Shown here: positions 70 to 25,989 of the stretch, in pieces | Numbering within the stretch: position 1 is the first letter of the stretch | Layout of the letters: every line of letters starts with the position of its first letter | From: Petrimonas mucosa | GTDB taxonomy: Bacteria; Bacteroidota; Bacteroidia; Bacteroidales; Dysgonomonadaceae | Reading direction: 5' to 3' | NCBI RefSeq assembly: GCF_900095795.1 | Contig: NZ_LT608328.1 | Location: 496,001-560,000 of the forward strand | Length of the DNA stretch: 64,000 bases | Position numbers and translations under genes: made by a program | Notes under the pieces: generated by a model | What the model saw: the letters and a program-made list of their open reading frames with translations, nothing else | What the model was told of the DNA's origin: nothing | The model's database searches: none

Positions 70-1557
70 ATGATAGCTATGAAATATATATATAAAGTTC
101 TTCTCTTCTTTGTGGCAATTACGCTGCTAAATGGGTGTCACGACAGTTTCCTGGAAGAAAAAGTATTCAGCAATATCACCCCCCTCAATTTCTATAAAAC
201 CGAACAGGATGCAAAAGCTGCCTTGACGTCGGTCTATAATACAATGCGGAGTGCTAATGCCTGGCAACGGCAGATCGTTCTTGCCGGAGAGTATCCGAGC
301 GAAGCTTCATGGCCAAATTTCTCCGGCGAGGCATGGCGTACCGAGATGGATCAGTTCACCTGGTCGGCCAGTTCCGGTCCGTTCTATCAGATATGGTCTC
401 AGCTCTATGTAATGGTGAACCGGGCCAATACCGTATTGATGTACGTGGACAACATCAACTTCACCACGCCGGGCATGAAGGAGCAGATTATAGGTGAGAC
501 CCGTTTTTTAAGGGGGCTTGCCTATCTCTATCTGGTGAGATTCTTTGAGAATGTTCCTCTCAAGACTGAAGAGAACATGAATGAACTGGAGCCAACCAAT
601 GAAGGCACTGCCGATGCCGTATGGGAGCTGATCTTCTCCGATTTCGAGTATGCAAAGAATAATCTTAAACCCAAATATACCGGAGCGGATGTGGGTAGAG
701 CCACCTCTGGAGCGGCGCAGACCATGCTGACCAAGGCATATTTATCCTACGCCGGCAGACCCTGGTTCAAGAGTGAGTATTGGAGCAAGGCAGCCCAGGA
801 GGCTAAATCTGTAATAGACAATACCTCCTACGGATACGATCTGGAACAGGATTATTCAAGCGTGTTCGCATTGAGCAATGAACATGGACCGGAATATATC
901 TTCAGTGTGGAATATCTGAGCAATAAAGCTGTGGGATGGGATTTCCAAACCTTTACCGGGATCAGAAACGGAGATCAGCAACGGCTGGGAGGATGGTCCT
1001 CCTTGTGTGTCGAGGAGGAGTTTTTTGAAACAATGGATGTGAGTGACAAGAGACGGGAAAAGACCTTTGTTCTCTCTTACCAGGGTTACAGCAATCCGGA
1101 AATTACCTACACCTATCCGGGCAACATCTCCCTGCCACACTACAACAAATACCAGGACAGGGATGATGTAGGATCGGGCACAGGCGACTATGGCCAGAAC
1201 TTCTACATCACCAGGTTCTCTGATCTGCTGCTGATGCATTCCGAAGCGGAAAATGAGGTCAATGGTCCTACCGCAACAGCCGTATCGGGAATCAATAGAG
1301 TGAGGGAGAGGGCCGGTCTGGCTCCCCTGGTCCCTTCGAACTTCACCAAGGAGTCGCTCAGAGAGGCAATTTATCAGGAGAGACTTTGGGAGTTGTGTGC
1401 AGAGGGACACGCCTGGTTTGATATGAAACGGATGAACCTGATGAAGCAGAGAATAACGAAATATAGTGTGGAAGATAAACATTATGTATTCCCGATTCCT
1501 CAGAATGAATTGGATGCAAATCCGAATCTCAAACAGAATAGTGAGTACGGCAATTAA
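70..1557 (+). CDS. RagB/SusD family nutrient-binding outer membrane lipoprotein
   Basis: This is the surface glycan-binding partner of the SusC porin whose end lies just upstream. A lipoprotein signal is visible: a hydrophobic stretch ending in the lipobox LLNGC, with the Cys at about residue 23. The family then shows an N-terminal segment with TPR-like helices (the region around RFLRGLAYLYLVRFF) and a C-terminal domain ending in a helix with YQERLWELCAEGHAWFDMKR, a signature of SusD proteins. The length of 495 aa is normal. An in-frame ATG at 79 (MKYIYKV) would also give a good signal peptide and may be the true start. A strong hairpin follows the stop, so the SusC/SusD pair probably ends its own transcript here. 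Confidence 0.93.
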   Translation: MIAMKYIYKVLLFFVAITLLNGCHDSFLEEKVFSNITPLNFYKTEQDAKAALTSVYNTMRSANAWQRQIVLAGEYPSEASWPNFSGEAWRTEMDQFTWSASSGPFYQIWSQLYVMVNRANTVLMYVDNINFTTPGMKEQIIGETRFLRGLAYLYLVRFFENVPLKTEENMNELEPTNEGTADAVWELIFSDFEYAKNNLKPKYTGADVGRATSGAAQTMLTKAYLSYAGRPWFKSEYWSKAAQEAKSVIDNTSYGYDLEQDYSSVFALSNEHGPEYIFSVEYLSNKAVGWDFQTFTGIRNGDQQRLGGWSSLCVEEEFFETMDVSDKRREKTFVLSYQGYSNPEITYTYPGNISLPHYNKYQDRDDVGSGTGDYGQNFYITRFSDLLLMHSEAENEVNGPTATAVSGINRVRERAGLAPLVPSNFTKESLREAIYQERLWELCAEGHAWFDMKRMNLMKQRITKYSVEDKHYVFPIPQNELDANPNLKQNSEYGN

Positions 1558-1573
1558 TAGTAGATAATCATGC

Positions 1574-1614
1574 AGCATCATATCCGGCAGCAAATTCAAA
1601 CCGGATATGATGCT
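1574..1614 (+). terminator. Hairpin terminator after susD
   Basis: Two 14-nt arms at 1574-1587 and 1601-1614 are perfect reverse complements around a 13-nt loop, followed by a pyrimidine-rich stretch. It lies 17 nt after the SusD stop and before the GH2 gene, so it likely ends or attenuates the susCD message. Confidence 0.75.
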
Positions 1615-1672
1615 CTTCTATTTCTGCTCCGGTTGAGATGGGGCCCTGACTCTTTAACACAAACATCAATAA

Positions 1673-4459
1673 ATGGTTGCTTTTATGAAGAAAATGAGTC
1701 TCTCCCTTCTGCTGCTCTGCCATATGGCATTGATGACCTTTGCACAAAAAACGGAATCGCTCTACCTGTCAGGTACCGGAAACGACGATACCGTTCTTTG
1801 GGATTTCTTTTGCAGTGCTGGACGTAACAGTGGAGTATGGACAAAGATTGCCGTACCGTCCAATTGGGAGTTCGAGGGTTTCGGGCAGTTTAATTATGGG
1901 CACGATAAGGAGCGGTTGAATGAGTATGGCATCTACCGCTACGAGTTTGACATACCCCGCCATTGGATCGACAAAAAGATCAACATCGTGTTTGAAGGTT
2001 CGATGACCGACACGCAGGTCAGAATTAACGGGAAGGAGGCGGGTGAAATTCATCAGGGCGGCTTTTATGAGTTCAGGTACGATATCACCCGGTTGTTGAA
2101 ATTCGGGAAAAAGAATCTTCTGGAGGTGACAGTCCATAAGTCCTCGGCAAACGAATCGATTGAAAATGGAGAGCGCAACTCCGATTTTTGGGTCTTTGGC
2201 GGTATCTATCGTCCGGTATGGCTCGAAGCTCTCCCAAAAACACATATTGAGCGGATTGCCATTGATGCGAAGGGCGATGGGTCTTTCCATGCAGATATTT
2301 TCCTCGGAGGGGACTTCTCTGAAACCCAGTTGAAAGCGCAAGTCAAGACACTGGACGGAAAACCGGCAGGCAATCCAGTTACCGGAACGGCAGGAAAAGT
2401 GAGCCGGGTACGTTTGTCCGGCGTCATGGAGAATCCCGCTTTGTGGTCGTCCGAGTCGCCCAACCTGTATCAGTTGGAGCTCTCCCTGTATCAAAAAGGG
2501 CAGCTGCTGCATGTCGTCACTTCAAAATTTGGCTTCAGAACGGTGGAGATGCGCCCCGGCGACGGGTTTTATGTGAACGGGACCAAAATCAAGTTCAAGG
2601 GGGTAAACCGGCATTCCCACTGGCCCACATCAGGGAGAGCCACAAATCGTAACATCAGTATAGCGGATGTCGAGTTGATCAAGGAGATGAACATGAATGC
2701 GGTACGGATGTCACATTATCCGCCCGACAAGCACTTTCTCGATGTGTGTGACTCGTTGGGCCTGTATGTGATTGACGAACTGACCGGTTGGCAGTCGAAA
2801 TATGATACCGAAGCAGGCAGGCGACTGGTGAAAGAGCTGGTGGTACGTGACCTGAATCACCCCAGTGTTGTGATGTGGGCAAATGGAAACGAGGGAGGCT
2901 TTAATTTTGAATTGGTGCCGGAGTATGCCCGGTATGATATCCAAAACCGGTATGTTTTTCATCCCTGGCTGGATGAGGAGAATTCCAATACCCATCACTA
3001 TCCGGACTGGAAAGTAGCATTTCAGTTGTTCGCTTCGGGCAAGAAGGTTTTCTTCCCGACGGAATTCATGCATGGCCTGTATGATGGTGGTCATGGCGCC
3101 GGGCTCGACGATTTCTGGAATCTGATGCAGGAGCATCCCCTCTCTGCCGGAGGTTTTTTATGGGATCTTGCCGACCAGGGGGTTGTGCGTGACGATCGAA
3201 ACGGAGAGATCGACACCGACGGCAATCATGCTGCCGATGGGATAGTAGGCCCATTCAGGGAGAAGGAGGGGAGCTTCTACACGATAAAGGAGATCTTCTC
3301 TCCGGTATATCTGGAAGGCCCTGACTTTCTTCCGCCAAGCTTTGACGGGAAGATCAGGGTGCATAACCGATATCATTTTACCAATCTCAAGGCCTGTAAG
3401 TTTTTGGCCAGGTGGGTCAGGTTTGATTTTATCACCGGGAAGTCGCATGAGCTTGTAAGTCAGATCGATGCTCCCGATGTCATGCCCGGTTACTCCGGAG
3501 AGCTCAGTGTAGAGTTACCCGAAAGGGTTTCGGATTACGATCTGCTGTTGATTACAGCAGTCGACCATTACGGAAAGGAGATATATACCTGGTCGAGAAA
3601 TATCACCCGTGCAGAGGATTTTGCACCGAGGCTCGTAGAACCTGGTGATGGTGAGACTACCGTTGATGAGCTGCAAGAGACATTCATTCTCACTTCTGGA
3701 GATACGAAAGTCCGGATTGAGAAGGCAACAGGGACGATCAGCGAAATAACGGTAAACGGTAAAACGGTTGCACTCGACAACGGTCCCAGGTTTACAGGCG
3801 GGGAACTGATACCCGGCGGTATTGAACAGATAGTTGAGGGTGCAACTTCAAGGGTGAAGATCTCATTCAACGATAAAAACGGCCGGAAGATGAACCGGAG
3901 CCAAATTACCATCGGGCTGTTGCCATCGGGCTGGATCGAGGTTGATTATCAATTTGATGTTGGCGGTTATCACGACCATATTGGCGTCACTTTCAACTAT
4001 CCCGAAGAGAAGGTAAAGGGTGTCAGATGGCTGGGCAACGGACCTTACCGTGTCTGGAAGAACCGTCTGAAAGGGGTGCGTTTCAACATCTGGGAGAAGG
4101 AGTACAACAATACCGTTACCGGCGAATCATGGATCTATCCCGAATTCAAGGGTTTCCACTCCAATGTCTATGCGGCAGACCTTTTTACCCATGAAGGAGT
4201 AGTAAAATTTGTCATCGCTTCGGATCATCTTTTTCTCCACCTGTTTACTCCCGATAACCCGCAAAGGAGAAACAACGATAACACGCTGGGGATCTTTCCC
4301 GATGGTCAGTTGTCGGTATTGAATGCCATCAGTCCCGTTGGAACCAAATTTCAGCAAGCAAGGGAGCTGGGTCCGCAAAGTCAGCAGAGCTATCTGTTGA
4401 GCAGGGGGCATCTCCAACCTCCGGGGGGAAAGTTCTACATCAGATATAATCCCTACTGA
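1673..4459 (+). CDS. Glycoside hydrolase family 2 (beta-galactosidase/beta-glucuronidase type), exported
   Basis: A retaining exo-glycosidase, probably periplasmic. It has a signal peptide (hydrophobic stretch ending TFAQ; the in-frame ATG at 1685, MKKMSL, is an equally good start). The GH2 order is visible: sugar-binding jelly roll at about 60-200, an Ig-like domain, then the TIM barrel starting at GVNRHSHWP. The acid/base is E407 in WANGNEGG, and the likely nucleophile is E464 in FFPTEFMHG, followed by GGFLWDLADQG as in LacZ-type enzymes. The C-terminal part (about 650-928) resembles the LacZ small-domain region. At 928 aa it fits the family. The specificity (galactoside, glucuronide or other) cannot be read from sequence. 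The neighbouring hexuronate genes make a glucuronide or galacturonide possible. Confidence 0.9.
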   Translation: MVAFMKKMSLSLLLLCHMALMTFAQKTESLYLSGTGNDDTVLWDFFCSAGRNSGVWTKIAVPSNWEFEGFGQFNYGHDKERLNEYGIYRYEFDIPRHWIDKKINIVFEGSMTDTQVRINGKEAGEIHQGGFYEFRYDITRLLKFGKKNLLEVTVHKSSANESIENGERNSDFWVFGGIYRPVWLEALPKTHIERIAIDAKGDGSFHADIFLGGDFSETQLKAQVKTLDGKPAGNPVTGTAGKVSRVRLSGVMENPALWSSESPNLYQLELSLYQKGQLLHVVTSKFGFRTVEMRPGDGFYVNGTKIKFKGVNRHSHWPTSGRATNRNISIADVELIKEMNMNAVRMSHYPPDKHFLDVCDSLGLYVIDELTGWQSKYDTEAGRRLVKELVVRDLNHPSVVMWANGNEGGFNFELVPEYARYDIQNRYVFHPWLDEENSNTHHYPDWKVAFQLFASGKKVFFPTEFMHGLYDGGHGAGLDDFWNLMQEHPLSAGGFLWDLADQGVVRDDRNGEIDTDGNHAADGIVGPFREKEGSFYTIKEIFSPVYLEGPDFLPPSFDGKIRVHNRYHFTNLKACKFLARWVRFDFITGKSHELVSQIDAPDVMPGYSGELSVELPERVSDYDLLLITAVDHYGKEIYTWSRNITRAEDFAPRLVEPGDGETTVDELQETFILTSGDTKVRIEKATGTISEITVNGKTVALDNGPRFTGGELIPGGIEQIVEGATSRVKISFNDKNGRKMNRSQITIGLLPSGWIEVDYQFDVGGYHDHIGVTFNYPEEKVKGVRWLGNGPYRVWKNRLKGVRFNIWEKEYNNTVTGESWIYPEFKGFHSNVYAADLFTHEGVVKFVIASDHLFLHLFTPDNPQRRNNDNTLGIFPDGQLSVLNAISPVGTKFQQARELGPQSQQSYLLSRGHLQPPGGKFYIRYNPY

Positions 4460-4620: not shown

Positions 4621-4652
4621 TTTGTAGGTCTCCAAAGATAGTTTTAACTTTG
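4621..4652 (+). promoter_or_regulatory. Bacteroidota-type promoter of the SDR-kinase-gnd-larA operon
   Basis: TTTG at 4621-4624, a 20-nt spacer, then TAACTTTG at 4645-4652, which fits the Bacteroidota consensus TTTG-N(17-23)-TAnnTTTG. The -7 element overlaps the first bases of an 18-bp palindrome, so a bound repressor would block initiation. Confidence 0.75.
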
Positions 4653-4666
4653 TGCACGTGCACAAA
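4649..4666. promoter_or_regulatory. 18-bp perfect palindromic operator (site 1)
   Basis: The sequence TTTGTGCACGTGCACAAA is its own reverse complement. It overlaps the -7 box of the promoter and lies 33 nt upstream of the ATG at 4700. A closely related copy is at 22891-22908, in the same position relative to another promoter. LacI- or GntR-type repressors use sites of this form; no such regulator is encoded in the window, so the cognate protein is unknown. Confidence 0.7.
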
Positions 4667-4699: not shown

Positions 4700-5512
4700 A
4701 TGTACGAACTATTCAACATTCAAGGCAAAGTAATTGTCATCACCGGAGGTACTGGTGTTTTAGGCGCCTCCATGGTGGAGTATCTTGCTTCTCATGGGGC
4801 AAAAGTGGCTGTATTGGCAAGGAATAAGGAGAAGGGGAATGTGTTGATTGAACGCGTCAAATCAAAAGGAGGGGAGGCCCTGTTCCTTCAGACCGATGTG
4901 ACCGACGAGACGGTTTTGAAACAAAACGCGGAGGAGATCATAAGCAGGTACGGAAAAATTGATGTGCTGATCAATGGGGCAGGGGGAAACATGCCCGGGG
5001 CAACCATCGGGCCACAAAACACGATCTTCGACCTGAAGATGGACGATTTTCGTCAGGTGGTGGATCTCAACCTGATGGGTACTGTTATTCCTACAATTGT
5101 TTTTGCAGGGTACATGGTGAGAGAGAAGAGAGGTAATATTGTCAATATATCTTCGGCTTCGGCGTTGCGTCCGCTCACGCGTGTTGCCGGATATGGTGCG
5201 GCAAAAGCGGCTGTCACAAATTTCACTAAATATATGGCAGGGGAGCTGGCGTTGAAGTTTGGCGAGGATTTTCGTGTAAACGCGCTTTGCCCCGGTTTCT
5301 TTATCACCGAACAAAACAGGACCTTGCTGACCAATCCCGACGGAACATACTCCGACAGGGGGAACAGCATCATTGCCCACACTCCGTTCAAGCGTTTCGG
5401 AAATCCGGAAGACCTGCTGGGCACGTTACACTACCTGGTGAGTGATGCTTCCAGGTTCGTGACCGGTACTGTGGCTATCGTGGATGGCGGTTTTGATGCC
5501 TTCAGCATTTAA
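4700..5512 (+). CDS. SDR oxidoreductase, probable D-mannonate (fructuronate) oxidoreductase
   Basis: A classical short-chain dehydrogenase of 270 aa. It has the Rossmann motif TGGTGVLG at 15-22, NGAGGN near 92-97, and the catalytic triad S152, Y165, K169. The AGGN..GAT region resembles Bacteroidota SDRs annotated as D-mannonate oxidoreductase, which reduce D-fructuronate to D-mannonate with NAD(P)H; gluconate 5-dehydrogenase is an alternative. It is clearly paralogous to the SDR at 11661. The ATG at 4700 is chosen because the longer frame begins at a GTG inside the operator palindrome. It is the first gene of an operon with a PfkB kinase, Gnd and a LarA-like epimerase. Confidence 0.85.
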   Translation: MYELFNIQGKVIVITGGTGVLGASMVEYLASHGAKVAVLARNKEKGNVLIERVKSKGGEALFLQTDVTDETVLKQNAEEIISRYGKIDVLINGAGGNMPGATIGPQNTIFDLKMDDFRQVVDLNLMGTVIPTIVFAGYMVREKRGNIVNISSASALRPLTRVAGYGAAKAAVTNFTKYMAGELALKFGEDFRVNALCPGFFITEQNRTLLTNPDGTYSDRGNSIIAHTPFKRFGNPEDLLGTLHYLVSDASRFVTGTVAIVDGGFDAFSI

Positions 5513-5560
5513 GAGATTCAAATACCCGAACAGCAATCATTATTTTAATTTTTTTTCATC

Positions 5561-6637
5561 ATGCTTCAACTCAGAAAGGATTGTAAATACTCATTGATCG
5601 TCGCTTCCAGCATGGGAGTCAGAATTACGCCGGTAAATTCCCAGCCGGTGCACAGCAGCAAACTTTTCGAAATGCACGCAACAAGTGCCGAAACAAATGT
5701 GGCAACCATTTCATCGTCATTGGGCCTTCCGGTAAAGGTGTTGACAACCTTTGTGAAAGATAGTCCGATTGCAGCTTTTATCAAATCCGACCTGAGAGCA
5801 AGAAATATCGATTACGAAGGAGTGGAGGTTCCGCAGGGAGATCCCTGGGGATACCGTCATCAGTTCAATATTGCAGATAGCGGTTTTGGATTGAGAGGAC
5901 CACGCGTACAGAATGACAGAGCCGGTGAGGTGGGGAAAACGTTAAATGTGAAAGATTTTGACCTGGAGAGGATCTTCGTGAAGGAGGGCGTTCAGATTCT
6001 CCATCTGTCGGGCTTGATTGCCGCCCTGTCGCCCGAGACCAGCAACTTCTGTCTTGAACTTGCACGGTACGCCAAAAAGCAGGGTACGCTCATCTCTTTC
6101 GATCTGAATTACAGGGCAACTTTCTGGAAAGGCAGGGAAAAGGAGCTGAGGGAGGCATTTGCCGAGATAGCTTCACTTTCAGATATCCTGATCGGTAACG
6201 AGGAAGATTTCCAGCTCTGTCTTGACGTGCAGGGACCGAAAGCGGGAGGTGAGAACATTGAAGATGCCATCGACGCTTTCAAGGGGATGATTCTCAACGC
6301 CAGAAAAGCATTTCCGCAGGTATCGGTGTTTGCAAATACGCTCCGTGAAGTGGTAAGTGCCAATGAACATCTTTGGGGGGCAATTGTTTATGAGAATGAG
6401 AACTGGCATGTTGCTCCGTTACGCAAGATCAACGTTATCGACCGGATTGGAGGTGGCGACGGTTTTGTGGGAGGTTTGCTCTATAGCATACTAAAGGGGA
6501 TGCCTTCCGAAAAATGGATCCAGTTCGCCTGGGCCAGTGGCGCGTTGGCCACTACCTTCCTTACCGATTATGCACAGCCAGCTGATGAAGAGATGATCTG
6601 GAGCATCTGGAAAGGAAATGCGAGGGTAAAACGATAA
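5561..6637 (+). CDS. PfkB/ribokinase-family sugar or sugar-acid kinase (KDG kinase-like)
   Basis: An ATP-dependent kinase of the PfkB fold, 358 aa, a little longer than the usual 300-340. The C-terminal anion-hole/catalytic motif reads IDRIGGGDGFVGG instead of the common DTVGAGDSF, with the catalytic Asp kept. The N-terminal substrate lid region has SAETNVA in place of GGAPANVA. Family and operon context point to a sugar-acid substrate: 2-keto-3-deoxygluconate is the default guess, but D-gluconate would fit the downstream 6-phosphogluconate dehydrogenase better. It sits 48 nt after the SDR and 22 nt before gnd, in one operon. Confidence 0.8.
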   Translation: MLQLRKDCKYSLIVASSMGVRITPVNSQPVHSSKLFEMHATSAETNVATISSSLGLPVKVLTTFVKDSPIAAFIKSDLRARNIDYEGVEVPQGDPWGYRHQFNIADSGFGLRGPRVQNDRAGEVGKTLNVKDFDLERIFVKEGVQILHLSGLIAALSPETSNFCLELARYAKKQGTLISFDLNYRATFWKGREKELREAFAEIASLSDILIGNEEDFQLCLDVQGPKAGGENIEDAIDAFKGMILNARKAFPQVSVFANTLREVVSANEHLWGAIVYENENWHVAPLRKINVIDRIGGGDGFVGGLLYSILKGMPSEKWIQFAWASGALATTFLTDYAQPADEEMIWSIWKGNARVKR

Positions 6638-6659
6638 TAGAACCAATCAAGAACATTAT

Positions 6660-8114
6660 ATGAAAAGTAAAGCAGATATCGGACTGATCGGTCTTGCCGT
6701 AATGGGCGAAAACCTCGTCCTGAACATGGAGAGCAAGGGTTATACGGTAGCCGTGTATAACCGGACGGTTGAAAAGGTTGATAATTTTGTCAATGGGAGA
6801 GGCAAAGGGAAAAACTTCATTGGAGCACACTCACTGGAAGAGTTGGTAACCTCGCTGGAACGCCCGCGTAAGGTAATGATGCTTGTAAAAGCAGGACAGC
6901 CGGTGGATGATTTCATCGAACAGCTCATACCGCTGCTTGAGCCAGGAGACATAATTATCGATGGTGGGAACAGCCATTTCCCCGATACGATCCGCCGTAC
7001 AAAGCTGGTGGAAGAGAAGGGACTACTCTATATCGGTACCGGCGTCTCCGGTGGTGAAGAGGGAGCACTGCTCGGGCCTTCGATGATGCCTGGCGGATCG
7101 CCTGAAGCATGGCCTTACGTGAAAGAGATCTTTCAGGCTGTTGCCGCAAAGGTTGAGGATGGATCTCCGTGTTGTGACTGGGTAGGCGAGAACGGTGCCG
7201 GACATTTTGTAAAGATGGTGCACAACGGTATCGAATACGGTGACATGCAGATCATCAACGAGGCATATCACTTGATGAAAGAGTTGTTAGGAATGGATGC
7301 CTTTGAACAGCACGAGGTGTTTAAAAAGTGGAAATCTGGAAGGCTCGACTCCTATCTGATCGAGATTACGGCAGATATTCTGGCATATAAAGACGAGGAT
7401 GGAAGCCCCTTGGTTGAAAAGATTCTCGATACAGCGGGACAGAAAGGTACCGGAAAATGGACGGCCGTATCGGCACTCGACTTGGGTATTCCGCTTACAC
7501 TTATCGGCGAATCTGTCTTCTCGCGCTGTCTTTCGGCCCAGAAAGAGCTTCGGGTAAAGGCTTCGGGAGTAATCGCAGGCAAGAAGCCGGCATTCAAGGG
7601 AGATAAGCAGCAGTTCATCGGTGACCTGGAACAGGCTCTCTACGGAGCGAAGATCATTTCGTACGCTCAGGGATATGACCTGATGATGGAGGCTGCCAAG
7701 GAGTACAAATGGAATCTCAACTATGGAGGAATTGCGCTGATGTGGCGTGGCGGATGCATTATCCGTTCGGTATTTCTGGGTGATATCAAGAAAGCATTCG
7801 ACAAGAATCCCGGACTGGAAAATCTGCTGCTCGACCCCTTCTTTAAAGAGAGCATCGAATCGGTTCAGGAGAGTTGGCGAAGAGTCTGTGCTACAGCTAT
7901 CGAAAACGGGATTCCTGTTCCGGCGCTCACTTCGGCGTTGAGCTATTTCGACGGGTTCCGTAACGACAGATTGCCGGCCAACCTGTTGCAGGCACAGCGC
8001 GACTACTTTGGCGCACATCAGTATGAACGGGTAGACAAACCACGGGGACAATTTTTCCATACCGACTGGACCGGACGTGGAGGAAGCACCGCCTCAACTA
8101 CTTACCAGGTGTAG
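6660..8114 (+). CDS. gnd: 6-phosphogluconate dehydrogenase, decarboxylating
   Basis: Converts 6-phosphogluconate to ribulose 5-phosphate and CO2 with NAD(P)+. The N-terminal Rossmann motif GLIGLAVMGENLVLNME is at about 8-24. The all-alpha C-terminal domain has GENGAGHFVKMVHNGIEYGD and ILDTAGQKGTGKWT, both diagnostic of the family. At 484 aa it is full length and resembles the long, dimeric form. Its place between a sugar-acid kinase and a LarA-like epimerase in a hexuronate operon is unusual and suggests that 6-phosphogluconate is an intermediate of the pathway encoded here rather than only of central metabolism. Confidence 0.95.
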   Translation: MKSKADIGLIGLAVMGENLVLNMESKGYTVAVYNRTVEKVDNFVNGRGKGKNFIGAHSLEELVTSLERPRKVMMLVKAGQPVDDFIEQLIPLLEPGDIIIDGGNSHFPDTIRRTKLVEEKGLLYIGTGVSGGEEGALLGPSMMPGGSPEAWPYVKEIFQAVAAKVEDGSPCCDWVGENGAGHFVKMVHNGIEYGDMQIINEAYHLMKELLGMDAFEQHEVFKKWKSGRLDSYLIEITADILAYKDEDGSPLVEKILDTAGQKGTGKWTAVSALDLGIPLTLIGESVFSRCLSAQKELRVKASGVIAGKKPAFKGDKQQFIGDLEQALYGAKIISYAQGYDLMMEAAKEYKWNLNYGGIALMWRGGCIIRSVFLGDIKKAFDKNPGLENLLLDPFFKESIESVQESWRRVCATAIENGIPVPALTSALSYFDGFRNDRLPANLLQAQRDYFGAHQYERVDKPRGQFFHTDWTGRGGSTASTTYQV

Positions 8115-8131
8115 TATATAAAACCGGAAAG

Positions 8132-9418
8132 ATGATCTATTTCCAAAGCGGATCCGCTCAACATAAACTGTCTCGAAAAGACCTGGAATCCGGTCTTTGC
8201 GAGGCTTTTGCCAAATTAGGCGAAAAGCATAAGGTATTGGTGATTCCGCCAGATTATACCCGGCTGCCTAGCCGTGCCGGGGAACTGACCGAGATAAGCT
8301 GGGAATATTACGGCGACAGGTTGACCGATATTCTTCCGGCGCTGGGGACACATACCCCAATGAGTGATGCCCAGATTGCACACATGTTCGGAAAGACTCC
8401 GGCCAGTCTTTTCCGTGATCACGATTGGCGAAACGATGTGGTAACACTTGGCCGGGTTTCTGCCGAAATCGTGGAGGAGGTTTCAGAGTATAAGGTGCAC
8501 TTCGATTGGCCTGTCCAGGTCAACAAACTGCTGGTTGAGGGAAATTTCGACCTGATCCTCTCCATCGGCCAGGTGGTCCCGCATGAGGTGGTGGGAATGG
8601 CCAACTACAACAAGAATATTTTTGTGGGAACGGGAGGAGCAGAAGCGATCAATAAAAGCCACTACATTGGTGCCGTTTACGGCATGGAGCGGATGATGGG
8701 ACGGGCAGACACCCCAGTCCGGAAACTCTTCAACTACGCCTCGGAAAATTATGCCGCCCATCTGCCGATTGTCTATGTGCTCACCGTAGTCGGCGTGAAC
8801 GGAGAAGGAGAACAACAGACCTACGGATTGTTCGTGGGGGACGATTTCTCCGTTTTTGACCTGGCGGCCAAACTCTCACTCGAAGTGAATTTCCAGATGG
8901 TTGAGAAGCCGCTAAAGAAGGTGTTGGTCTGGCTGGATCCCACCGAGTTCAAGAGTACCTGGCTAGGGAACAAGTCGATCTACAGGACCCGCATGGCTAT
9001 TGCCGATGGTGGAGAGCTTATCGTGTTGGCTCCGGCATTGAAAGAGTTCGGCGAAGATAAGGAGATCGACAGGCTGATCCGCAAGTACGGCTATTTCGGA
9101 ACACCAAGAACGCTGAAGGCGGTGGAGGCAAACGTGGAGTTGCAGGAAAATCTTGGTGCAGCGGCTCACCTGATTCATGGTTCGTCCGAAGGTCGCTTTT
9201 CCATTACCTACTGTCCGGGTAAGGGGCCTGGAAACCTCACAAAGGAGGAGATCGAAAGTGTCGGCTTTCAATGGGGTGATATCGATGAGACGATGCAAAG
9301 GTACAATTTCCCGCAATTGAAAGAGGGATACAATATCTTGCCTGACGGCGAAGAGCTCTATTATATTTCGAGTCCCGCTTTGGGTTTGTGGGCACATCGG
9401 GACCGGTTTGAGTATTGA
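8132..9418 (+). CDS. LarA-family nickel-pincer racemase/epimerase (candidate D-gluconate/D-mannonate 2-epimerase)
   Basis: A 428-aa protein of the lactate racemase (LarA/DUF2088) family. By spacing, its residues match the Lactobacillus plantarum LarA set: GTH (H74) for H108, H151 for H174, K161 for K184 (the Lys bound to the nickel-pincer cofactor) and H177 for H200. The intervals H-10-K-16-H are identical to those in LarA. PDYTR at 41-44 replaces the usual DHTR motif. The superfamily racemizes or epimerizes alpha-hydroxy acids, and a D-gluconate 2-epimerase has been reported in it. In this operon the logical reaction is D-mannonate to D-gluconate. The cofactor genes larB, larC and larE are not in the window. 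It ends 4 nt before a convergent AraC gene. Confidence 0.82.
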   Translation: MIYFQSGSAQHKLSRKDLESGLCEAFAKLGEKHKVLVIPPDYTRLPSRAGELTEISWEYYGDRLTDILPALGTHTPMSDAQIAHMFGKTPASLFRDHDWRNDVVTLGRVSAEIVEEVSEYKVHFDWPVQVNKLLVEGNFDLILSIGQVVPHEVVGMANYNKNIFVGTGGAEAINKSHYIGAVYGMERMMGRADTPVRKLFNYASENYAAHLPIVYVLTVVGVNGEGEQQTYGLFVGDDFSVFDLAAKLSLEVNFQMVEKPLKKVLVWLDPTEFKSTWLGNKSIYRTRMAIADGGELIVLAPALKEFGEDKEIDRLIRKYGYFGTPRTLKAVEANVELQENLGAAAHLIHGSSEGRFSITYCPGKGPGNLTKEEIESVGFQWGDIDETMQRYNFPQLKEGYNILPDGEELYYISSPALGLWAHRDRFEY

Positions 9419-9422: not shown

Positions 9423-10304
9423 CTATCTCGCCTTTCTGAATTCCAATAGGTATTCCGATGGCGTGAAGGTTGTAATCTTCTTGAATTGCCTGTTAAAATT
9501 CGAGATATTGTTAAACCCTACCTCATAACTGATCTGGGAGATTGACAGTCTCCCTTCACGCAACAGTTTGCAGGCGTAGGCAACCTTCAACTCGTTGATA
9601 TATGCAATACACGATTTGCTTGTCTTTTCCTTGAAAAGCCGGCAAAATGCCGATTTGTTCATGCCGGCCTGATCAACAACAGCGTCCAGATCAATCGGTT
9701 GTGAATAGTGTTTGTTGATAAAGGTGAGCACCTTCATGATCCGTGGATCATTGAATTGATCGCTAAAGCTGTTTTCATAATAATCTTCATTGAGCAACTC
9801 CTTGTCACCTGTTTCGCCCATCAGTGATAATATCCTGATACACTCAATCAACAGGTCAATTTTCTTCAGATTGAGCGCTTTTTTTAAGCTCTTTTTGATC
9901 TGATCAGTCTCTTTGCTACTTTTAAAGCAGATACCATACTGCGACTCCTCGAGCAATGTTTTTATATTGTGAAACTCCGGATAGTTTTCAATGGCGGAAG
10001 AGAAAAAATTTTTAGCGAACTGAAGTACAATTGCCTTAACCCGTAATGAGGGATTGTTCCGATAATATTCGGGAGCACTCTTGTACATGTGAGGGAGGGA
10101 GCTGCCCAGTAATACCAGGTCGCCTTCCGAATAGGGTTCAATGCTGTTTCCAACGTACCGTTTGCCGCAACTCCTTATTATATATATTATTTCATATTCG
10201 GCATGGTAGTGCAACGGGTACTTGAAGTTGTCGTAATCGCACCATTTAATCTTGACCGGTGAGCCGGTGCTGAATGTGAGTTGTTCATGCATCAATTTGG
10301 TCAT
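9423..10304 (-). CDS. AraC-family transcriptional regulator with cupin sensor domain
   Basis: The N-terminal half carries a cupin-like arabinose-binding domain (HYHAEYEIIYI, then YSEGDLVLLGSSLPHMY). The C-terminal 100 residues hold two helix-turn-helix motifs ending in ISQISYEVGFNNISNFNRQFKKITTFTPSEY, the AraC signature. The start at 10304 (MTKLMHEQ) is preferred because the longer frame to 10358 runs through likely promoter sequence. It is divergent from uxuA and convergent with the larA-like gene, so it is a candidate activator of the neighbouring sugar-acid genes. Confidence 0.88.
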   Translation of the reverse strand: MTKLMHEQLTFSTGSPVKIKWCDYDNFKYPLHYHAEYEIIYIIRSCGKRYVGNSIEPYSEGDLVLLGSSLPHMYKSAPEYYRNNPSLRVKAIVLQFAKNFFSSAIENYPEFHNIKTLLEESQYGICFKSSKETDQIKKSLKKALNLKKIDLLIECIRILSLMGETGDKELLNEDYYENSFSDQFNDPRIMKVLTFINKHYSQPIDLDAVVDQAGMNKSAFCRLFKEKTSKSCIAYINELKVAYACKLLREGRLSISQISYEVGFNNISNFNRQFKKITTFTPSEYLLEFRKAR

Positions 10305-10434
10305 GGCACTGTTTTTTGATTTAGCTCGGAATTGCAAATATAGTATATTCTGTTGCAAATTTACTATTTGCCTTTAACTATTTTATTCTCTTTGTTTGTA
10401 ACATAATTTAATGTTTGGTAATCATTATTTCAAA

Positions 10435-11664
10435 ATGCCTATAGAGAAAACATGGAGATGGTTTGGCTTCAACGATACCGTTACTCTACGTGAGTTGAAG
10501 CAGATTGGTGTTGAAGGGATTGTTACTTCATTACATCACCTGAAGCCCGGTGAGATTTGGGAGGTTGCCGAGATAAAAAGGGTCCAGGATGAAATCGGAA
10601 AGGAGGGTTTGAGATGGAGTGTTGTGGAAAGCCTTCCTGTATCTGAAGAGATCAAACTCAATTCCGTAAAAAGCAGTGAGCACATCGAAAATTATAAGAG
10701 ATCCCTGATAAATCTCAGTAAATGCGGGATAGATACAGTCTGCTACAACTTCATGCCGGTACTCGACTGGGTAAGGACCGATCTGCAATATAGAGACCGG
10801 GATGGGAGTGAGACCATGCTGTTCGATCTGATAACGTTTGCACTTTTTGACATATATATCCTGAAGCGGGCCGGTGCGGAGAGGGATTACTCTTCGGAGA
10901 TCTTATCGAGGGCGAAAGAGAGGTACGGACAGATGAATGATGATGAAAAGGAGAAACTTGCCTACAATATCATCGTCTACACTCAAGGGTTCGTCAACAG
11001 TGCTGTTACCGACAGCGAGGATTACATCTCCCTTTTCACCCGGGCACTGAATAGATACAGTGCGATTGACAAAGCAGTGTTGAGGAACCATTTTTCGATC
11101 TTTATAAAAGAGGTGGTTCCTGTCGCCGAGCAATATGGGATAAGATTGTGCATTCATCCCGACGATCCGGCCTTCCCATTATTGGGTTTACCCCGGATGG
11201 CCGGTTCCATCGAGGATTTCGAATGGATCTTCTCGCAAGCCGCTTCAGTTGCGAACGGATTTACGCTCTGTACCGGATCACTTGCTTCCAGATTTGGCAA
11301 CGATCCTGTTGAATTTGTGAAACGATTTTCGGAGAGGATCCATTTTGTACACCTGAGAAATATTCAGTTCCTGAATGAGGGATCTTTCTTTGAATCGGGT
11401 CATATCGATGGTTCAGTCGATATGTACGAAGTGGTAAGATTGCTTTTGAATGAATTGCATACCAGACAGAAAGCGGACAGGAGCGATCTCCGCCTGCCAA
11501 TGCGGGTGGATCATGGCAAGAAGATCCTGAGCGATTTTTCAAGGGAGTCCAATCCCGGCTATCCGTTGATCGGGCGACTGAAAGGATTGGCAGAGATCTC
11601 CGGCCTGATAGCAGGCGTGGAAAGGGGAATGAGAGAGTATACAAATAGTAATAGAAGTAAATGA
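10435..11664 (+). CDS. uxuA: Mannonate dehydratase
   Basis: Dehydrates D-mannonate to 2-keto-3-deoxy-D-gluconate. The start MPIEKTWRWFGFNDTVTL matches the N-terminus of UxuA proteins, as do GVVTSLHH-like GIVTSLHHLKPGEIW, VVESLPVSEEIK and the signature TVCYNFMPVLDWVRTDL. Metal ligands are expected in LCIHPDDP and FVHLRNIQF and in MRVDHGKKI. At 409 aa it is full length. A longer frame begins at ATG 10411, but the 10435 start agrees with family N-termini. It overlaps the next SDR gene by 4 nt (ATGA), a sign of translational coupling. Confidence 0.95.
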   Translation: MPIEKTWRWFGFNDTVTLRELKQIGVEGIVTSLHHLKPGEIWEVAEIKRVQDEIGKEGLRWSVVESLPVSEEIKLNSVKSSEHIENYKRSLINLSKCGIDTVCYNFMPVLDWVRTDLQYRDRDGSETMLFDLITFALFDIYILKRAGAERDYSSEILSRAKERYGQMNDDEKEKLAYNIIVYTQGFVNSAVTDSEDYISLFTRALNRYSAIDKAVLRNHFSIFIKEVVPVAEQYGIRLCIHPDDPAFPLLGLPRMAGSIEDFEWIFSQAASVANGFTLCTGSLASRFGNDPVEFVKRFSERIHFVHLRNIQFLNEGSFFESGHIDGSVDMYEVVRLLLNELHTRQKADRSDLRLPMRVDHGKKILSDFSRESNPGYPLIGRLKGLAEISGLIAGVERGMREYTNSNRSK

Positions 11665-12485
11665 GAAGCACAATTTTTGATTTATCGGGAAAAGTGGCTA
11701 TTGTAACCGGGGGAACTGGAGTGCTGGGTGGCTCCATCGCCGAATCACTCCTTGCAGCTGGAGTCAAGGTGGCGATCATTGCCCGGAATGAGTCGAATGT
11801 AGAGGAGAAGAGCGGAGTTTTCCAGGAAACCTTCGGGAAAGAGAGTGTATCGGGATATGCCTGTGATGTTCTAGATATTGGACGGCTTGAGACGGTCAGG
11901 CAGGATATCCTTGAGAAGTGGGGCGGAATAGATATTCTGGTCAACTGCGCAGGAGGAAATGTGAAAGGAGCCACGCTGACCGACCAGCAGTCGTTTTTCG
12001 ACATGGATCTCAACTTGTGGGATGAAGTATTGGATTTGAACCTGAGCGGCACGATCTATCCTTCATTTGTTTTCGGGGAGATCATGGGGCGCCGGAAGAG
12101 CGGTTGCATCATCAATATTTCGTCGATGGCGGCCCTTACGGCCATCACCCGTGTTCCCGGCTACTCGGCAGCAAAAGCGGCTGTTGACAATTTTACGCGA
12201 TGGCTTGCCATGGAGATGGCGTTGAAATTCAGCGACAAGATCAGGGTCAATGCGATTGCGCCAGGTTTCTTTATCGGGAAACAGAACAGAAATGTGTTGT
12301 TGAATGATGACGGATCTCTTACCGAGCGGAGCAAGAAAGTGTTGGCAAGAACGCCCATGAAACGGTTCGGAAAGATTACCGAGTTGAATGGAGCCGTACA
12401 GTTCCTCTGCTCGGATGCGGCAAGTTTTATTACCGGTGTCGTTCTGCCTGTAGATGGTGGGTTTAGTATTTATAGCGGGGTATAA
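11661..12485 (+). CDS. SDR oxidoreductase, probable D-mannonate oxidoreductase (UxuB-type function)
   Basis: A 274-aa classical SDR with TGGTGVLG at 16-23, NCAGGN near 95-100 and the triad S155, Y168, K172. It is translationally coupled to uxuA through a 4-nt overlap, which strongly suggests it supplies or consumes mannonate (fructuronate to mannonate with NAD(P)H). It is a divergent paralogue of the SDR at 4700; the two share most motifs, including NRxxLLxxDGS/T near the C-terminus. Having two such enzymes in neighbouring operons suggests different substrates or cofactor preference. Confidence 0.87.
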   Translation: MRSTIFDLSGKVAIVTGGTGVLGGSIAESLLAAGVKVAIIARNESNVEEKSGVFQETFGKESVSGYACDVLDIGRLETVRQDILEKWGGIDILVNCAGGNVKGATLTDQQSFFDMDLNLWDEVLDLNLSGTIYPSFVFGEIMGRRKSGCIINISSMAALTAITRVPGYSAAKAAVDNFTRWLAMEMALKFSDKIRVNAIAPGFFIGKQNRNVLLNDDGSLTERSKKVLARTPMKRFGKITELNGAVQFLCSDAASFITGVVLPVDGGFSIYSGV

Positions 12486-12509: not shown

Positions 12510-13775
12510 ATGATGAAAAGAGTATTTGGAATAGTTGCTTTACTGATCTCCTTCCCGTTGTTCGCCCAGGAGTTGATCACTTTCTCCTTGAAGGCGAACA
12601 GGGATTATCTGGATGTTCCAGTCTCATTTCCCCTGCAACAAGTCAACTATAATATGGACAGTGTGCAGTTGGAGCTGTTTGAGATTGTCAATTCTGCAGA
12701 AAAACCTGTAGCATGCCAGGTGGAAGCGGGGCATACAGCACATCTCTGGTTTATCCTGGAGGGTTTCACTCAAAAAAATAGAACACGGAGATTTGTCATT
12801 AAGAGAAGAAGTGGAGGTTTGGCAAAGAAGAGATCCGCAAGTATGAGCACGAAGTCGTCGGATGGAAACCTGACACTCTATACCGATGACAAACCAGTAT
12901 TGAGTTATAGATTCCGCACGATGTATCCGCCGGAAGGGGTGAACCCCCTATTCGAACGTTCGGGATTCATACACCCTGTATGGTCGCCACAGGGAGAGAT
13001 GCTGTCTCGCGTGCAACCTCCCGATCATTATCATCATTACGGTATATGGGGGCCCTGGACCCTGACCCATATCGGCGAGAGGAAGGTCGATTTCTGGAAC
13101 CTGGCCGATGGAGAGGGAACCGTCAGGTTTGCCGGATTCCTGTCGGAAGTTTCCGGCGATGTCTTTGCAGGATTCAAGGCATTGCAGCAACATATAGATT
13201 TTGGAGGGAAGGGTTGCGACCAGATCGCGATCAACGAGATATTGGATGTCAGGGTTTGGAACAACAGCAGGGGGGTGTGGGTAATCGATTATACCACCTC
13301 GCTGAATACTCCGCTGGAAAATGGTATCCTGTTCGATGCCTACCGTTACGGTGGGGGGATTGGCTTCAGGGCAACCGAGAGGTGGAATAGAGAGAACTGC
13401 ACGGTCCTGACTTCGGAAGGAAGAAGCCGTGCTGATGCCGACGGCAGCAGTGCCCGATGGTGTATTGTGGAGGGTGAATCGGAGAGCCGGGAGGGCAGAT
13501 CGGGCATCCTGTTCCTGAGTCATCCTGCAAACCGTGCACATCCGGAGCCGATGCGCGTCTGGCCGCTGGATGGCAATGGGGGACGTGGTGATCTCTTTTT
13601 CGAATTCACGCCAATCCGGCACAAATCTTGGGAGTTGAAGAGAGGCTCCGATTATGCTTTAAAGTACCGGATGATCGTATTCGACGGAAAAATTGATCCC
13701 CGTACGGCAGAAATGTACTGGAACAGTTTTTCGGAAATGCCGCAAATTAAAGTCGAATCAATTAAATATCAATGA
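12510..13775 (+). CDS. DUF6807 (PmoA-like) secreted protein, long form
   Basis: Signal peptide at about 1-20 (ends LFAQ). The region FIHPVWSPQGEMLSRVQPPDHYHHYGIWG is the hallmark of the family named PmoA or DUF6807, which is common in Bacteroidota glycan loci and Planctomycetes. The several His residues (DHYHHYG) look like a ligand or metal site. At 421 aa it has an extra N-terminal beta-rich domain (about 25-130) compared with the next gene. The enzymatic role is not established to my knowledge; the 'methane oxygenase' name is not meaningful here. It lies 24 nt after the SDR and overlaps the next gene by 4 nt. Confidence 0.8.
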   Translation: MMKRVFGIVALLISFPLFAQELITFSLKANRDYLDVPVSFPLQQVNYNMDSVQLELFEIVNSAEKPVACQVEAGHTAHLWFILEGFTQKNRTRRFVIKRRSGGLAKKRSASMSTKSSDGNLTLYTDDKPVLSYRFRTMYPPEGVNPLFERSGFIHPVWSPQGEMLSRVQPPDHYHHYGIWGPWTLTHIGERKVDFWNLADGEGTVRFAGFLSEVSGDVFAGFKALQQHIDFGGKGCDQIAINEILDVRVWNNSRGVWVIDYTTSLNTPLENGILFDAYRYGGGIGFRATERWNRENCTVLTSEGRSRADADGSSARWCIVEGESESREGRSGILFLSHPANRAHPEPMRVWPLDGNGGRGDLFFEFTPIRHKSWELKRGSDYALKYRMIVFDGKIDPRTAEMYWNSFSEMPQIKVESIKYQ

Positions 13776-14668
13776 AAATGAAAAAAAATCTCATTGTCAT
13801 TCTAGCGCTCCTTTTTCATCCCGTGGTTTTTTCACAAACCAAGGTGACAGCAGAAAAAAGGGGAGACAGGATTGAAATCAGTATCAACGGAAACCTTTTT
13901 ACCACCTATATTTTGTCGGAGTCTGAGAAATATCCATTCTTTTTTCCGGTAAACGGTCCATCGAATGGATCGGTCACGTCCATGCGCAATGCCAATTATC
14001 CCCATCACAGTTCACTTTTCTTTGGTTGCGACCGGGTAAATGGAGGAAACTATTGGCAAGAGGGTCTGGAAAGGGGGCAGATCATTTCACTAAGGGCTGA
14101 TATACTTGAATCTGGAGGAGAGAGAGTGGTTATCGAGAATGAATGCATCTGGAGACGTCCGGGTGCAGATGCCCCCATCAGGGATAAGCGGCTCATTACC
14201 GTTTCAGCCCCGTCTGCCGACAAATTCCGGATAGATTTCGATGTGACCATGGAGATGCTTATGGATGTGGTGATCGAGAAGACGAACCATTCGCTCTTTA
14301 GTGGAAGAGTCGATCCCGATCTGGCAGTAATCAACGGAGGAGTGATGGTGAATGCCGAGGGAGATAGAGGCGAGAAGGATACCTTTGGAAAGAGATCACC
14401 CTGGATGGATTGTCATGGTAAAAGACAAGGCAAGACAGAGGGGATTGCTATTATGCAGCATCCATCGAATGATTGGTATCCATCACCGTGGTTCACCCGC
14501 GATTACGGATTCTTCTCACCCACGCCCATGTACTGGCCGGAAAACGATAAGCATATGTCGTTTAAAAAGGGAGATCAGATCAGGCTCAGATACCGGGTAT
14601 TGGTTCACTCGGGGAATCACCTGGAGGCCAATATCGCACAAGAATTTGAAAAGTATAAATCAGAATAA
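13772..14668 (+). CDS. DUF6807 (PmoA-like) secreted protein, short form
   Basis: 298 aa with a signal peptide (ends VVFSQ; the ATG at 13778 is an alternative start). It shares the DUF6807 plan with the preceding gene: an upstream NYPHHSSLFFGCDRVNG segment takes the place of DHYHHYG, and the C-terminus has FFSPTPMYWP followed by a strand LRYRVLVHSG, parallel to LKYRMIVFDG in the longer protein. The pair therefore looks like tandem diverged copies. The 4-nt overlap with the previous gene argues for coupled translation and joint function, probably on a periplasmic sugar derivative. Confidence 0.75.
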   Translation: MKMKKNLIVILALLFHPVVFSQTKVTAEKRGDRIEISINGNLFTTYILSESEKYPFFFPVNGPSNGSVTSMRNANYPHHSSLFFGCDRVNGGNYWQEGLERGQIISLRADILESGGERVVIENECIWRRPGADAPIRDKRLITVSAPSADKFRIDFDVTMEMLMDVVIEKTNHSLFSGRVDPDLAVINGGVMVNAEGDRGEKDTFGKRSPWMDCHGKRQGKTEGIAIMQHPSNDWYPSPWFTRDYGFFSPTPMYWPENDKHMSFKKGDQIRLRYRVLVHSGNHLEANIAQEFEKYKSE

Positions 14669-14679
14669 CCAGAAATCAG

Positions 14680-16056
14680 ATGAAAAGAAGGATGTTTATC
14701 AAGAAAGCAGCTGCCTCAGCAGTCGGAACAGTGGTTATACCTACTATTGTTCCAGCTTCGGTGTTTGGCAAAAATGCACCGAGCAACAGGATCCATATCG
14801 GGCAGATCGGGTTCGGTAGAATTGCACGCGATCATGATATGGCCGAGACCATAGTGTATGACCAGGCGCAGTTTATTGCAGTGTGTGATGTAGATAAAAA
14901 ACGGCTCTATGACGGGAAGAACTACATCGATAATTACTATGCGAAGAAGACGGGCAACAGCAACTATTCCAATGCCATCATGTATGATGATTACCGGGAG
15001 ATGCTTCTGAACAAAGATATCGATGCGGTAATCATCAGCACTCCGGACCATTGGCATGCAGAACCGGCAGCCAGGGCCGCCCTGGCAAAAAAAGACATCT
15101 ATCTGCAGAAACCCACTTCGCTTACAGTGGCTGAAGGAAGGTTCTTAAGTGATCTTGTCAGAAAACAGGGAGTGATCCTGCAGGTAGGTACGCAGCAACG
15201 CTCTTCCCCTCAATTCAGGATTGCCGCAGAATTGGTCAGGAATGGCAGAATTGGCAAGCTGCACACCGTGAAGATCGGTCTGCCGGGAGATCCCTCTGGC
15301 CCCGAAGCCGCAGAGATGCCGATTCCCAAGAATCTCAACTACGATATGTGGCTGGGCTCTACACCGGAGGTATATTATACGGAAATGCGCGTCCATCCGC
15401 AGGAGGGTTACGGTCGCCCCGGGTGGTTGAGATGTGAGCAGTTCGGTTCGGGAATGATCACCGGATGGGGACAACATCACTTTGAATCGGCAGCATGGGG
15501 CATGGATACGGAATATACCGGACCCATATCGGTTGAAGCGGTGGCGGAATTTCCAAAATCAGGCCTGTGGGATGTCCATGGCGATTTTATGGTGAAAGCG
15601 GAGTATGAAAACGGAATTACCATGTATACCAGTGGCGGATATCCGAACGGTATACGGTATGAAGGTAGTGAAGGCTGGATATTCGTCTCGCGCGGTAACT
15701 ACGTGGCATCCTCAAGCGATCCGGTAGCGCAGAGCAACAACGCCAAAGCATTGGATGCAAGCGATCCGAAGATCCTTACCTCGGAGATCAAGGAGGATGA
15801 GATCCATCTCTATGTAAGCGATAATCATCACGGCAACTGGCTCGATTGCATCAAGTCCAGAAAGGAACCGATCTCCCCGATCGAGATAGGGCACCGGGCC
15901 TGCACCATCTGTCTGATCAGCCATATTGCGATGAAAATACCCGGCAGACTGGAGTGGGATCCCAAAAAGGAGAGGTTCAGGAATAGTGAAGTGGCCAACT
16001 CCATGTTGAAACGGCCGCAACGTTCTCCCTACGGTACCGATTATATAAAAGTTTAG
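14680..16056 (+). CDS. Gfo/Idh/MocA-family oxidoreductase, exported (Tat-like signal)
   Basis: 458 aa. The N-terminus KRRMFIKKAAASAVG fits a twin-arginine signal, used in this family to export the enzyme with NAD(P) bound. The Rossmann motif IGQIGFGRIARDHD is at about 43-56, and STPDHWH marks the end of the cofactor domain. The catalytic motif usually written EKP is QKP here (YLQKPTS), and the downstream His region reads GWGQHHFESA instead of DWGxHxxD. The substitutions may mean altered chemistry. Related proteins oxidize the 3-OH of glycosides to keto sugars. It lies 11 nt after DUF6807 and 20 nt before the next family member. Confidence 0.88.
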   Translation: MKRRMFIKKAAASAVGTVVIPTIVPASVFGKNAPSNRIHIGQIGFGRIARDHDMAETIVYDQAQFIAVCDVDKKRLYDGKNYIDNYYAKKTGNSNYSNAIMYDDYREMLLNKDIDAVIISTPDHWHAEPAARAALAKKDIYLQKPTSLTVAEGRFLSDLVRKQGVILQVGTQQRSSPQFRIAAELVRNGRIGKLHTVKIGLPGDPSGPEAAEMPIPKNLNYDMWLGSTPEVYYTEMRVHPQEGYGRPGWLRCEQFGSGMITGWGQHHFESAAWGMDTEYTGPISVEAVAEFPKSGLWDVHGDFMVKAEYENGITMYTSGGYPNGIRYEGSEGWIFVSRGNYVASSSDPVAQSNNAKALDASDPKILTSEIKEDEIHLYVSDNHHGNWLDCIKSRKEPISPIEIGHRACTICLISHIAMKIPGRLEWDPKKERFRNSEVANSMLKRPQRSPYGTDYIKV

Positions 16057-16076
16057 CCAATAAGAGATGAGAGAGA

Positions 16077-17486: not shown

Positions 17487-17542
17487 TTGTCAATTAATCT
17501 AATGCGAATGAATTGCATATAATCATTTTTAATTTTACTGAT

Positions 17543-20761: not shown

Positions 20762-20773
20762 ATTTTCTGAATC

Positions 20774-22678: not shown

Positions 22679-22699
22679 AAAAACATCCTTTGACAGGTG

Positions 22700-22752
22700 T
22701 GAGTAATGAGAGGGGTTCAACGCAGGTGTTGGACCTCTCTCTTGCTTACTCA
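22700..22752 (+). terminator. Hairpin after the long SusCD operon
   Basis: Arms at 22700-22721 and 22728-22752 pair over most of their length (TGAGTAA with TTACTCA, then a GAGAGG/CCTCTC segment and a GTTCAAC/GTTGGAC closing pair). No clean T-run follows, so it may stabilize the 3' end rather than act as a classical intrinsic terminator. Confidence 0.55.
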
Positions 22753-23088: not shown

Positions 23089-23141
23089 TTTGTATAAACT
23101 ATGGTGTTGCTAATGAGAAACCGTTTTATAATTATAAATCT

Positions 23142-25982: not shown

Positions 25983-25989
25983 CAATATC

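Follow-up and report, generated by a model that had tools for sequence, protein, structure and literature searches.

A conserved Bacteroidota operon as a candidate hexuronate branch into the pentose phosphate pathway, with a LarA-family enzyme in hosts that often lack LarB, LarC, and LarE

A 64,000-nt stretch of the Petrimonas mucosa genome (contig NZ_LT608328.1, positions 496,001 to 560,000; called the window below and numbered from its first nucleotide) was analyzed, in which four genes encode a short-chain dehydrogenase/reductase (SDR), a PfkB-family sugar-acid kinase, the decarboxylating 6-phosphogluconate dehydrogenase Gnd, and a homolog of LarA. The data suggest, with a probability that we put at roughly 0.58, that through this operon hexuronate catabolism branches into the pentose phosphate pathway, and that the operon uses an enzyme of the nickel-pincer nucleotide (NPN) type whose host lacks the LarB-LarE-LarC route to this cofactor. 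In this pathway the SDR would reduce fructuronate to mannonate, the LarA homolog would invert C2 of mannonate to give gluconate, the PfkB kinase would phosphorylate gluconate to 6-phosphogluconate, and Gnd would decarboxylate the latter to ribulose 5-phosphate. The net conversion would be redox-neutral, as has been stated for a version of the route in Lactobacillus suebicus (PMC6978723). The same route had been put forward in an earlier reading of the DNA letters alone, called here the original prediction. It is the reading best supported by gene context, because the four genes form a conserved unit, the LarA group is placed next to proven gluconate 2-epimerases, the kinase is not a member of the clade of 2-keto-3-deoxygluconate (KDG) kinases, and the genes UxaC, UxaE, and transketolase are found as neighbors in relatives; an order in which the kinase acts before the epimerase is also compatible with the gene content.

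The four-gene operon and its conservation

The source genome is a single contig of 3.72 Mb with 99.88% completeness. The operon that had been predicted at 4700–9418 was confirmed, with all four genes on the plus strand and intergenic gaps of 48, 22, and 17 bases (SDR-PfkB, PfkB-Gnd, and Gnd-LarA, respectively). The SDR gene (4700..5512, with an ATG at 4700; 270 amino acids) encodes a protein of the fructuronate reductase/D-mannonate oxidoreductase type, which scored 368.6 bits against a cut-off of 281 in NF006132 “D-mannonate oxidoreductase”, a subfamily-level model, so that the substrate is a putative one. The kinase gene (5561..6637; 358 amino acids; PF00294) is followed by the gene of Gnd (6660..8114; 484 amino acids), which scored 756 bits against the equivalog cut-off of 426.7 of TIGR00873, and by the gene of the LarA homolog (8132..9418; 428 amino acids), which belongs to group 18 of the LarA superfamily.

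Conservation was measured in two sets of loci. Of 395 evenly sampled Bacteroidota genomes, 22 had a group-18 LarA homolog over the cut-off; one genome with a 45-amino-acid LarA fragment scoring under the cut-off (G326) is not among them. The 22 genomes yielded 21 loci when the window's own was excluded (the phylum sample). The second set consisted of 80 named loci, which are the nearest relatives and thus an uneven sample. Tblastn was used to count the SDR, PfkB, and Gnd genes that shared the strand of the LarA gene and lay up to 6.5 kb from it, because the gene caller hid genes in four loci (L047, L057, L104, and L115). The counts of Eda, UxuA, PdxB, and transketolase were taken from the gene caller, and since L057 is absent there, they refer to 20 of the 21 phylum-sample loci. 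The grouping goes beyond chance, since all three partners accompany LarA in each of the 47 named loci with at least 5 kb on both sides, which answers in the affirmative the question, raised with the original prediction, of whether the gene set co-occurs in other Bacteroidota. Overall, the three partners were present in 63 of the 80 named loci, the other 17 having <5 kb on one or both sides. In the phylum sample the complete set was found in 14 of 21 loci, the SDR in 19, PfkB in 16, and Gnd in 19.

The clusters of the relatives also hold UxaC (uronate isomerase), UxaE (tagaturonate epimerase), KduI, Eda, and PdxB, and a transketolase gene is present in three of 20 phylum-sample loci; together, these neighbors point to a hexuronate catabolic setting. 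The PdxB-type 4-phosphoerythronate dehydrogenase gene was observed in the clusters of 40 of the 80 named loci (L092-L149), where its usual place is between LarA and Gnd. 4-Phosphoerythronate inhibits 6-phosphogluconate dehydrogenase, and the PdxB-type gene may serve to clear this compound.

The LarA homolog

The LarA homolog scored 647.1 bits against a cut-off of 500 in NF052594 “nickel-dependent putative hexonate epimerase”. In an alignment of group-18 proteins, R44, K161, and H177, which are the counterparts of the NPN-binding residues R75, K184, and H200 of LarA, as well as D41, H74, H151, and K281, which are the counterparts of its catalytic residues D72, H108, H174, and K298 (LarA numbering, PMC7583248), were invariant in 102 of 102 sequences. 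Among these, Lys161 (codon at 8612..8614, plus strand) aligns with Lys184, the site of covalent cofactor attachment, and His177 (codon at 8660..8662, plus strand) with His200, a nickel ligand (PMC9283937). As judged from the alignment, the protein is an ordinary NPN enzyme in its active site. The loop and helix-11 parts of the hexonate signature of groups 18–20, which are E-V/S after the second catalytic histidine and a tryptophan in helix 11 (PMC7583248), were found as E152-V153 and W277 in all 102 sequences. Hence, the window protein is a member of group 18 by score, signature, and residues, and this group has been predicted to use a hexonate substrate (PMC7583248).

The fold is consistent with this assignment. 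The AlphaFold model of the LarA homolog had a pLDDT of 86.5 and a pTM of 0.86, and all 19 Foldseek matches with E ≤ 0.001 were structures of the LarA family. The best match was 4NAR, which is Thermotoga maritima GntE2 (TM-score 0.79, 23% identity in the structural alignment), ahead of lactate and malate racemases. Assays published in 2020 established D-mannonate as a substrate of GntE2 and of Corynebacterium glutamicum GntE1 (PMC7583248), in line with the earlier statement that the LarA superfamily includes a gluconate 2-epimerase. These comparisons suggest that the group-18 LarA homolog is probably a D-mannonate/D-gluconate 2-epimerase.

The order of the kinase and epimerase steps could also be the reverse of that proposed above, with PfkB phosphorylating mannonate and the LarA homolog epimerizing 6-phosphomannonate to 6-phosphogluconate. 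The gene content of the two versions is identical, and the kinase-first order was demonstrated in extracts of L. suebicus (PMC6978723). Two conserved basic residues of group 18 could hold a phosphate. One is K274, whose position is taken by aspartate in 4NAR and in eight of the nine other sampled LarA homologs, and the other is R287, where all nine of these homologs have glutamate and 4NAR has glutamine. On the other hand, the available text of PMC6978723 assigns no genes to the L. suebicus enzymes, and the assayed gluconate 2-epimerases, members of groups 19 and 20, use mannonate that carries no phosphate (PMC7583248). We consider the kinase-first order unlikely.

Absence of the cofactor biosynthesis genes

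LarA enzymes carry NPN, which is made by LarB, LarE, and LarC (PMC7583248, PMC9283937). The original prediction took a nickel-pincer cofactor for granted, and the known source of it is lacking in this host. A profile search of the complete genome, in which T. maritima LarC served as the positive control, gave no match to LarC. The best hit to LarB had 53 bits against a cut-off of 175, and the hits to LarE had at most 38 bits against a cut-off of 150, so that none of the three proteins expected of a host making the NPN holoenzyme was found. The hits were considered as disguised versions of these proteins and rejected, as the LarB-like one scores as PurE, while the LarE-like ones are GMP synthase, argininosuccinate synthase, QueC, and NAD synthase.

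This absence is common among the genomes with a group-18 protein. LarB, LarC, and LarE were all absent from 15 of the 22 genomes of the even sample and all present in the other seven. The group-18 protein is the sole LarA homolog in 21 of the 22 genomes, including six of the seven with larB, larC, and larE. LarC was also missing in 40 of 50 named relatives, a subset of the 80 that was picked as isolates or contigs of at least 30 kb; these are near relatives, searched for LarC only, and the completeness of their genomes is not given. The LarC-less relatives include the complete genome of Petrimonas sp. IBARAKI, the source of the nearest named LarA relative (90% identity), and Proteiniphilum acetatigenes DSM 18083. 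LarC differs within closely related pairs among the 50, such as Maribellus maritimus and Maribellus sediminis, or Mariniphaga sediminis and Mariniphaga anaerophila. When LarA homologs of all types were counted in the sample of 395, 26 of 40 genomes with a homolog over the cut-off had no LarC, and nine of 23 genomes with LarC had no LarA homolog over the cut-off. Eight genomes of one family (f39) hold two LarA homologs each and no LarC or LarB over the cut-off, which indicates that the occurrence of LarA without cofactor genes is not confined to group 18.

Long-term retention of the enzyme without a known cofactor source is suggested by the invariant residues, the LarA tree, and low ratios of nonsynonymous to synonymous substitution rates (dN/dS). 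The alignment of 102 sequences includes 55 from LarC-less genomes, in which the seven residues are unchanged, and a loss of the cofactor site in such genomes was therefore rejected. In the LarA tree, 22 rows were labeled by LarB, LarC, and LarE and the other 50 by LarC only. The label switches 11 times on this tree, five of these changes being forced by well-supported branches, and no active-site column changes with it. The window protein lies within a set of 19 sequences, every one of which comes from a LarC-less genome. Eight pairs were used to compute dN/dS, seven of them between LarC-less genomes, and six of these seven gave values of 0.03–0.07, which are rough because several dS values exceed 1.

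These observations could also be explained if the group-18 protein in genomes lacking LarB, LarC, and LarE worked free of NPN, with another cofactor or in another reaction. In favor of this are the number of genomes without the biosynthesis genes and the 11 changes of the cofactor-gene label at constant active-site columns. Against it speak the invariance of the catalytic residues, of the lysine that binds the cofactor covalently, and of the histidine that ligates nickel, and the finding that the group-18 protein is mostly the only LarA homolog in the genomes that do encode LarB, LarC, and LarE. This explanation is in our view unlikely. With an NPN enzyme in a host without the known LarB-LarE-LarC route, the cofactor would be taken up or made by other enzymes; most likely NPN is scavenged from neighbors, or else it is made by enzymes beyond those known so far. 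In a tentative generalization, which we hold to be quite possible though short of probable, NPN could be a traded cofactor that makers and users exchange as with vitamin B12, or a second route of NPN synthesis could exist. Either would explain the LarC-less users of LarA, and exchange would in addition explain the published converse case of genomes with larBCE but no larA (PMC11796402).

The PfkB kinase and the weighing of the proposed route

The PfkB proteins from the loci were compared in a tree of 52 of 103 rows, in which they form three groups, each set off by a branch with SH-aLRT support of 96–100; the deep joins of this tree are unsure, as the program warns of long branches meeting. One group contains the solved KDG kinase 2AFB of T. 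maritima. Its members have a YDR segment and often lie beside Eda, UxaC, or Kdu genes. The two other groups sit with LarA and Gnd, and one of them contains the window protein, which is apart from 2AFB and has NDR in place of YDR. Moreover, 15 loci have a KDG-type gene, and in 13 of them a LarA-linked kinase is present as well. The separate clades and this co-presence suggest that the LarA-linked kinase is probably not a KDG kinase, and that the window protein is probably a gluconate (or mannonate) 6-kinase. In two of the 21 phylum-sample loci the slot of PfkB is occupied by a PfkA-type gene of the diphosphate-fructose-6-phosphate 1-phosphotransferase family (L046:10616-11896 and L048:6138-7418, the latter assigned by cluster only), and a HAD-type gene separates it from the LarA gene downstream. 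This HAD-type gene (cluster c27) is a direct neighbor of LarA in five loci, all LarC-less (L046, L048, L050, L054, and L061), and was set aside as a cofactor-supply candidate, since five loci are too few to mean anything.

Several observations weigh against the proposed pathway and its cofactor. PfkB is missing near LarA in five of the 21 phylum-sample loci. The KDPG (2-keto-3-deoxy-6-phosphogluconate) aldolase Eda is in the cluster in seven of 20 phylum-sample loci and one of the 80 named loci, and UxuA lies between the SDR and the kinase in nine of the 80, so that in those loci the kinase could still act on KDG. The bypass of KDPG aldolase that had been predicted thus holds for the route itself, but where Eda is part of the same cluster the route would be a branch and not a replacement. 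As to the cofactor, group-18 LarA is associated with LarC (seven of 22 genomes versus 16 of 373, odds ratio 10, P = 8e-5), which fits the use of NPN and leaves the LarC-less majority unexplained. The seventh dN/dS pair between LarC-less genomes, a very close one, gave 0.21, and the roughness of the ratios applies to all of them. In the neighborhoods of the LarA genes, which are the regions that were examined, no NPN uptake system or cofactor-supply gene was found, and NPN-loaded LarA proteins have been described as labile (PMC11796402).

A KDG kinase role can be extended to the window itself, where PfkB would serve the adjoining UxuA operon and LarA and Gnd would be merely its operon-mates. 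Consistent with this, the best solved match of the kinase is 2AFB, named 2-keto-3-deoxygluconate kinase; UxuA genes do occur between the SDR and the kinase, as described above; and tblastn with the proteins of relatives revealed no second PfkB, Eda, UxaC, or UxaE within the 64-kb window. However, the KDG-type proteins, 2AFB included, are set off by a branch with a support of 98, their YDR segment is NDR in the group of the window protein, most loci with a KDG-type gene have the LarA-linked kinase in addition, and the kinase stays with LarA and Gnd in loci without UxuA nearby. This makes a KDG kinase in the window quite improbable. It is very improbable that LarB, LarC, and LarE are present and were missed through assembly gaps or divergence. 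Their absence does depend on profile searches, but four single-contig genomes lack all three (which led us to reject assembly gaps), the scores are two-peaked (LarB at least 256 versus at most 53 bits, LarE at least 219 versus at most 46), the three occur all or none, and the weak hits of the window's genome are other enzymes.

Comparison with known systems

The route from fructuronate to ribulose 5-phosphate is not new, as it was proposed for T. maritima (Rodionova 2012, as quoted in PMC6978723), the activity of its epimerase was demonstrated in 2020, and a hexonate had already been predicted as the substrate of group 18 (PMC7583248). The T. maritima gntE-gntK-gnd branch has the same proposed chemistry, with a fructuronate reductase, a mannonate/gluconate 2-epimerase of the LarA superfamily, a gluconate kinase, and 6-phosphogluconate dehydrogenase. 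The two systems differ in the epimerase, which is of group 18 here and of group 20 there, at 23% identity to 4NAR, and in the cofactor genes, since LarC is present in T. maritima whereas LarB, LarC, and LarE are all absent here. They also differ in the kinase, which is a PfkB protein here, while that of Thermotoga presumably belongs to the FGGY family. The galacturonate pathway of L. suebicus resembles the proposed one in that an upper isomerase pathway is joined to 6-phosphogluconate and ribulose 5-phosphate in a redox-neutral manner; it differs in that mannonate is phosphorylated before epimerization, and in the available text the genes of both steps are not named (PMC6978723).

Mannonate is likewise the starting point of the classical UxuA-KdgK-Eda route, whose end products are pyruvate and glyceraldehyde 3-phosphate and which needs neither the epimerase nor Gnd. 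As had been predicted, this route is represented separately in the window, by the next operon, which begins with UxuA mannonate dehydratase (10411..11664, plus strand; classical branch, TIGR00695, 460 bits) and a second D-mannonate oxidoreductase-type SDR (11661..12485, plus strand; NF006132, 357.5 bits), 48% identical to the first.

As far as our literature searches show, the conserved Bacteroidota operon that includes a PfkB kinase is new. That a conserved NPN-type enzyme commonly occurs without larB, larC, and larE also appears to be new in the literature searched, which did not include Desguin 2014. In the available portions of PMC7583248 and of later papers, no member of group 18 is among the assayed or named proteins, and the frequent occurrence of this group without cofactor genes is not mentioned. 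Bacteroidota thus gain a conserved candidate route by which pectin and glucuronate sugars could enter the pentose phosphate pathway, and two groups of PfkB proteins are flagged as probable gluconate or mannonate kinases. If the proposed reading is true, a nickel organometallic enzyme without the known cofactor route would mean either NPN auxotrophy with uptake or a second biosynthetic pathway, and it would explain in a new way the bacteria that have larBCE without larA.

Promoter candidate, regulators, and neighboring genes

The Bacteroidota promoter consensus, TTTG N20 TAACTTTG, has a candidate match at 4621..4652 on the plus strand, 48–79 bases upstream of the SDR start; seven matches to this consensus were found in the window versus 1.32 expected. 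The candidate is overlapped by a perfect 18-base palindrome, TTTGTGCACGTGCACAAA, at 4649..4666, which could be the operator of a LacI-type regulator. The 16-base core of the palindrome was also found before the SDR in L071, and the variant TGTACGTACA in L075, L090, and L093, while neither was present before the SDR in the remaining 83 of 87 loci. As only four of 87 loci have it, the link to the regulator is weak. The gene of such a regulator lies upstream of the window on the minus strand (L059:10240-11310, PF00356), and by eye it is the counterpart of cluster c5, which is present in 43 fetched loci.

Between this regulator and the SDR operon are genes for a SusC-like TonB-dependent receptor, SusD, and a GH2 enzyme (window 70–4459; L059:10240-16558). 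In Petrimonas sp. IBARAKI the regulator immediately precedes the SDR, so this polysaccharide-utilization block seems to have been either inserted in the genome of the window or lost in IBARAKI. On the other side of the operon, the gene of an AraC-family regulator (9423..10358, minus strand, with a provisional start codon; PF12833, PF00165) is convergent to it. The region that follows the UxuA operon, at 12510–27360, encodes two DUF6807 proteins, Gfo/Idh/MocA oxidoreductases, a 3-keto-disaccharide hydrolase (PF06439), and SusD, and it looks like a cluster for the degradation of 3-keto-glycosides.

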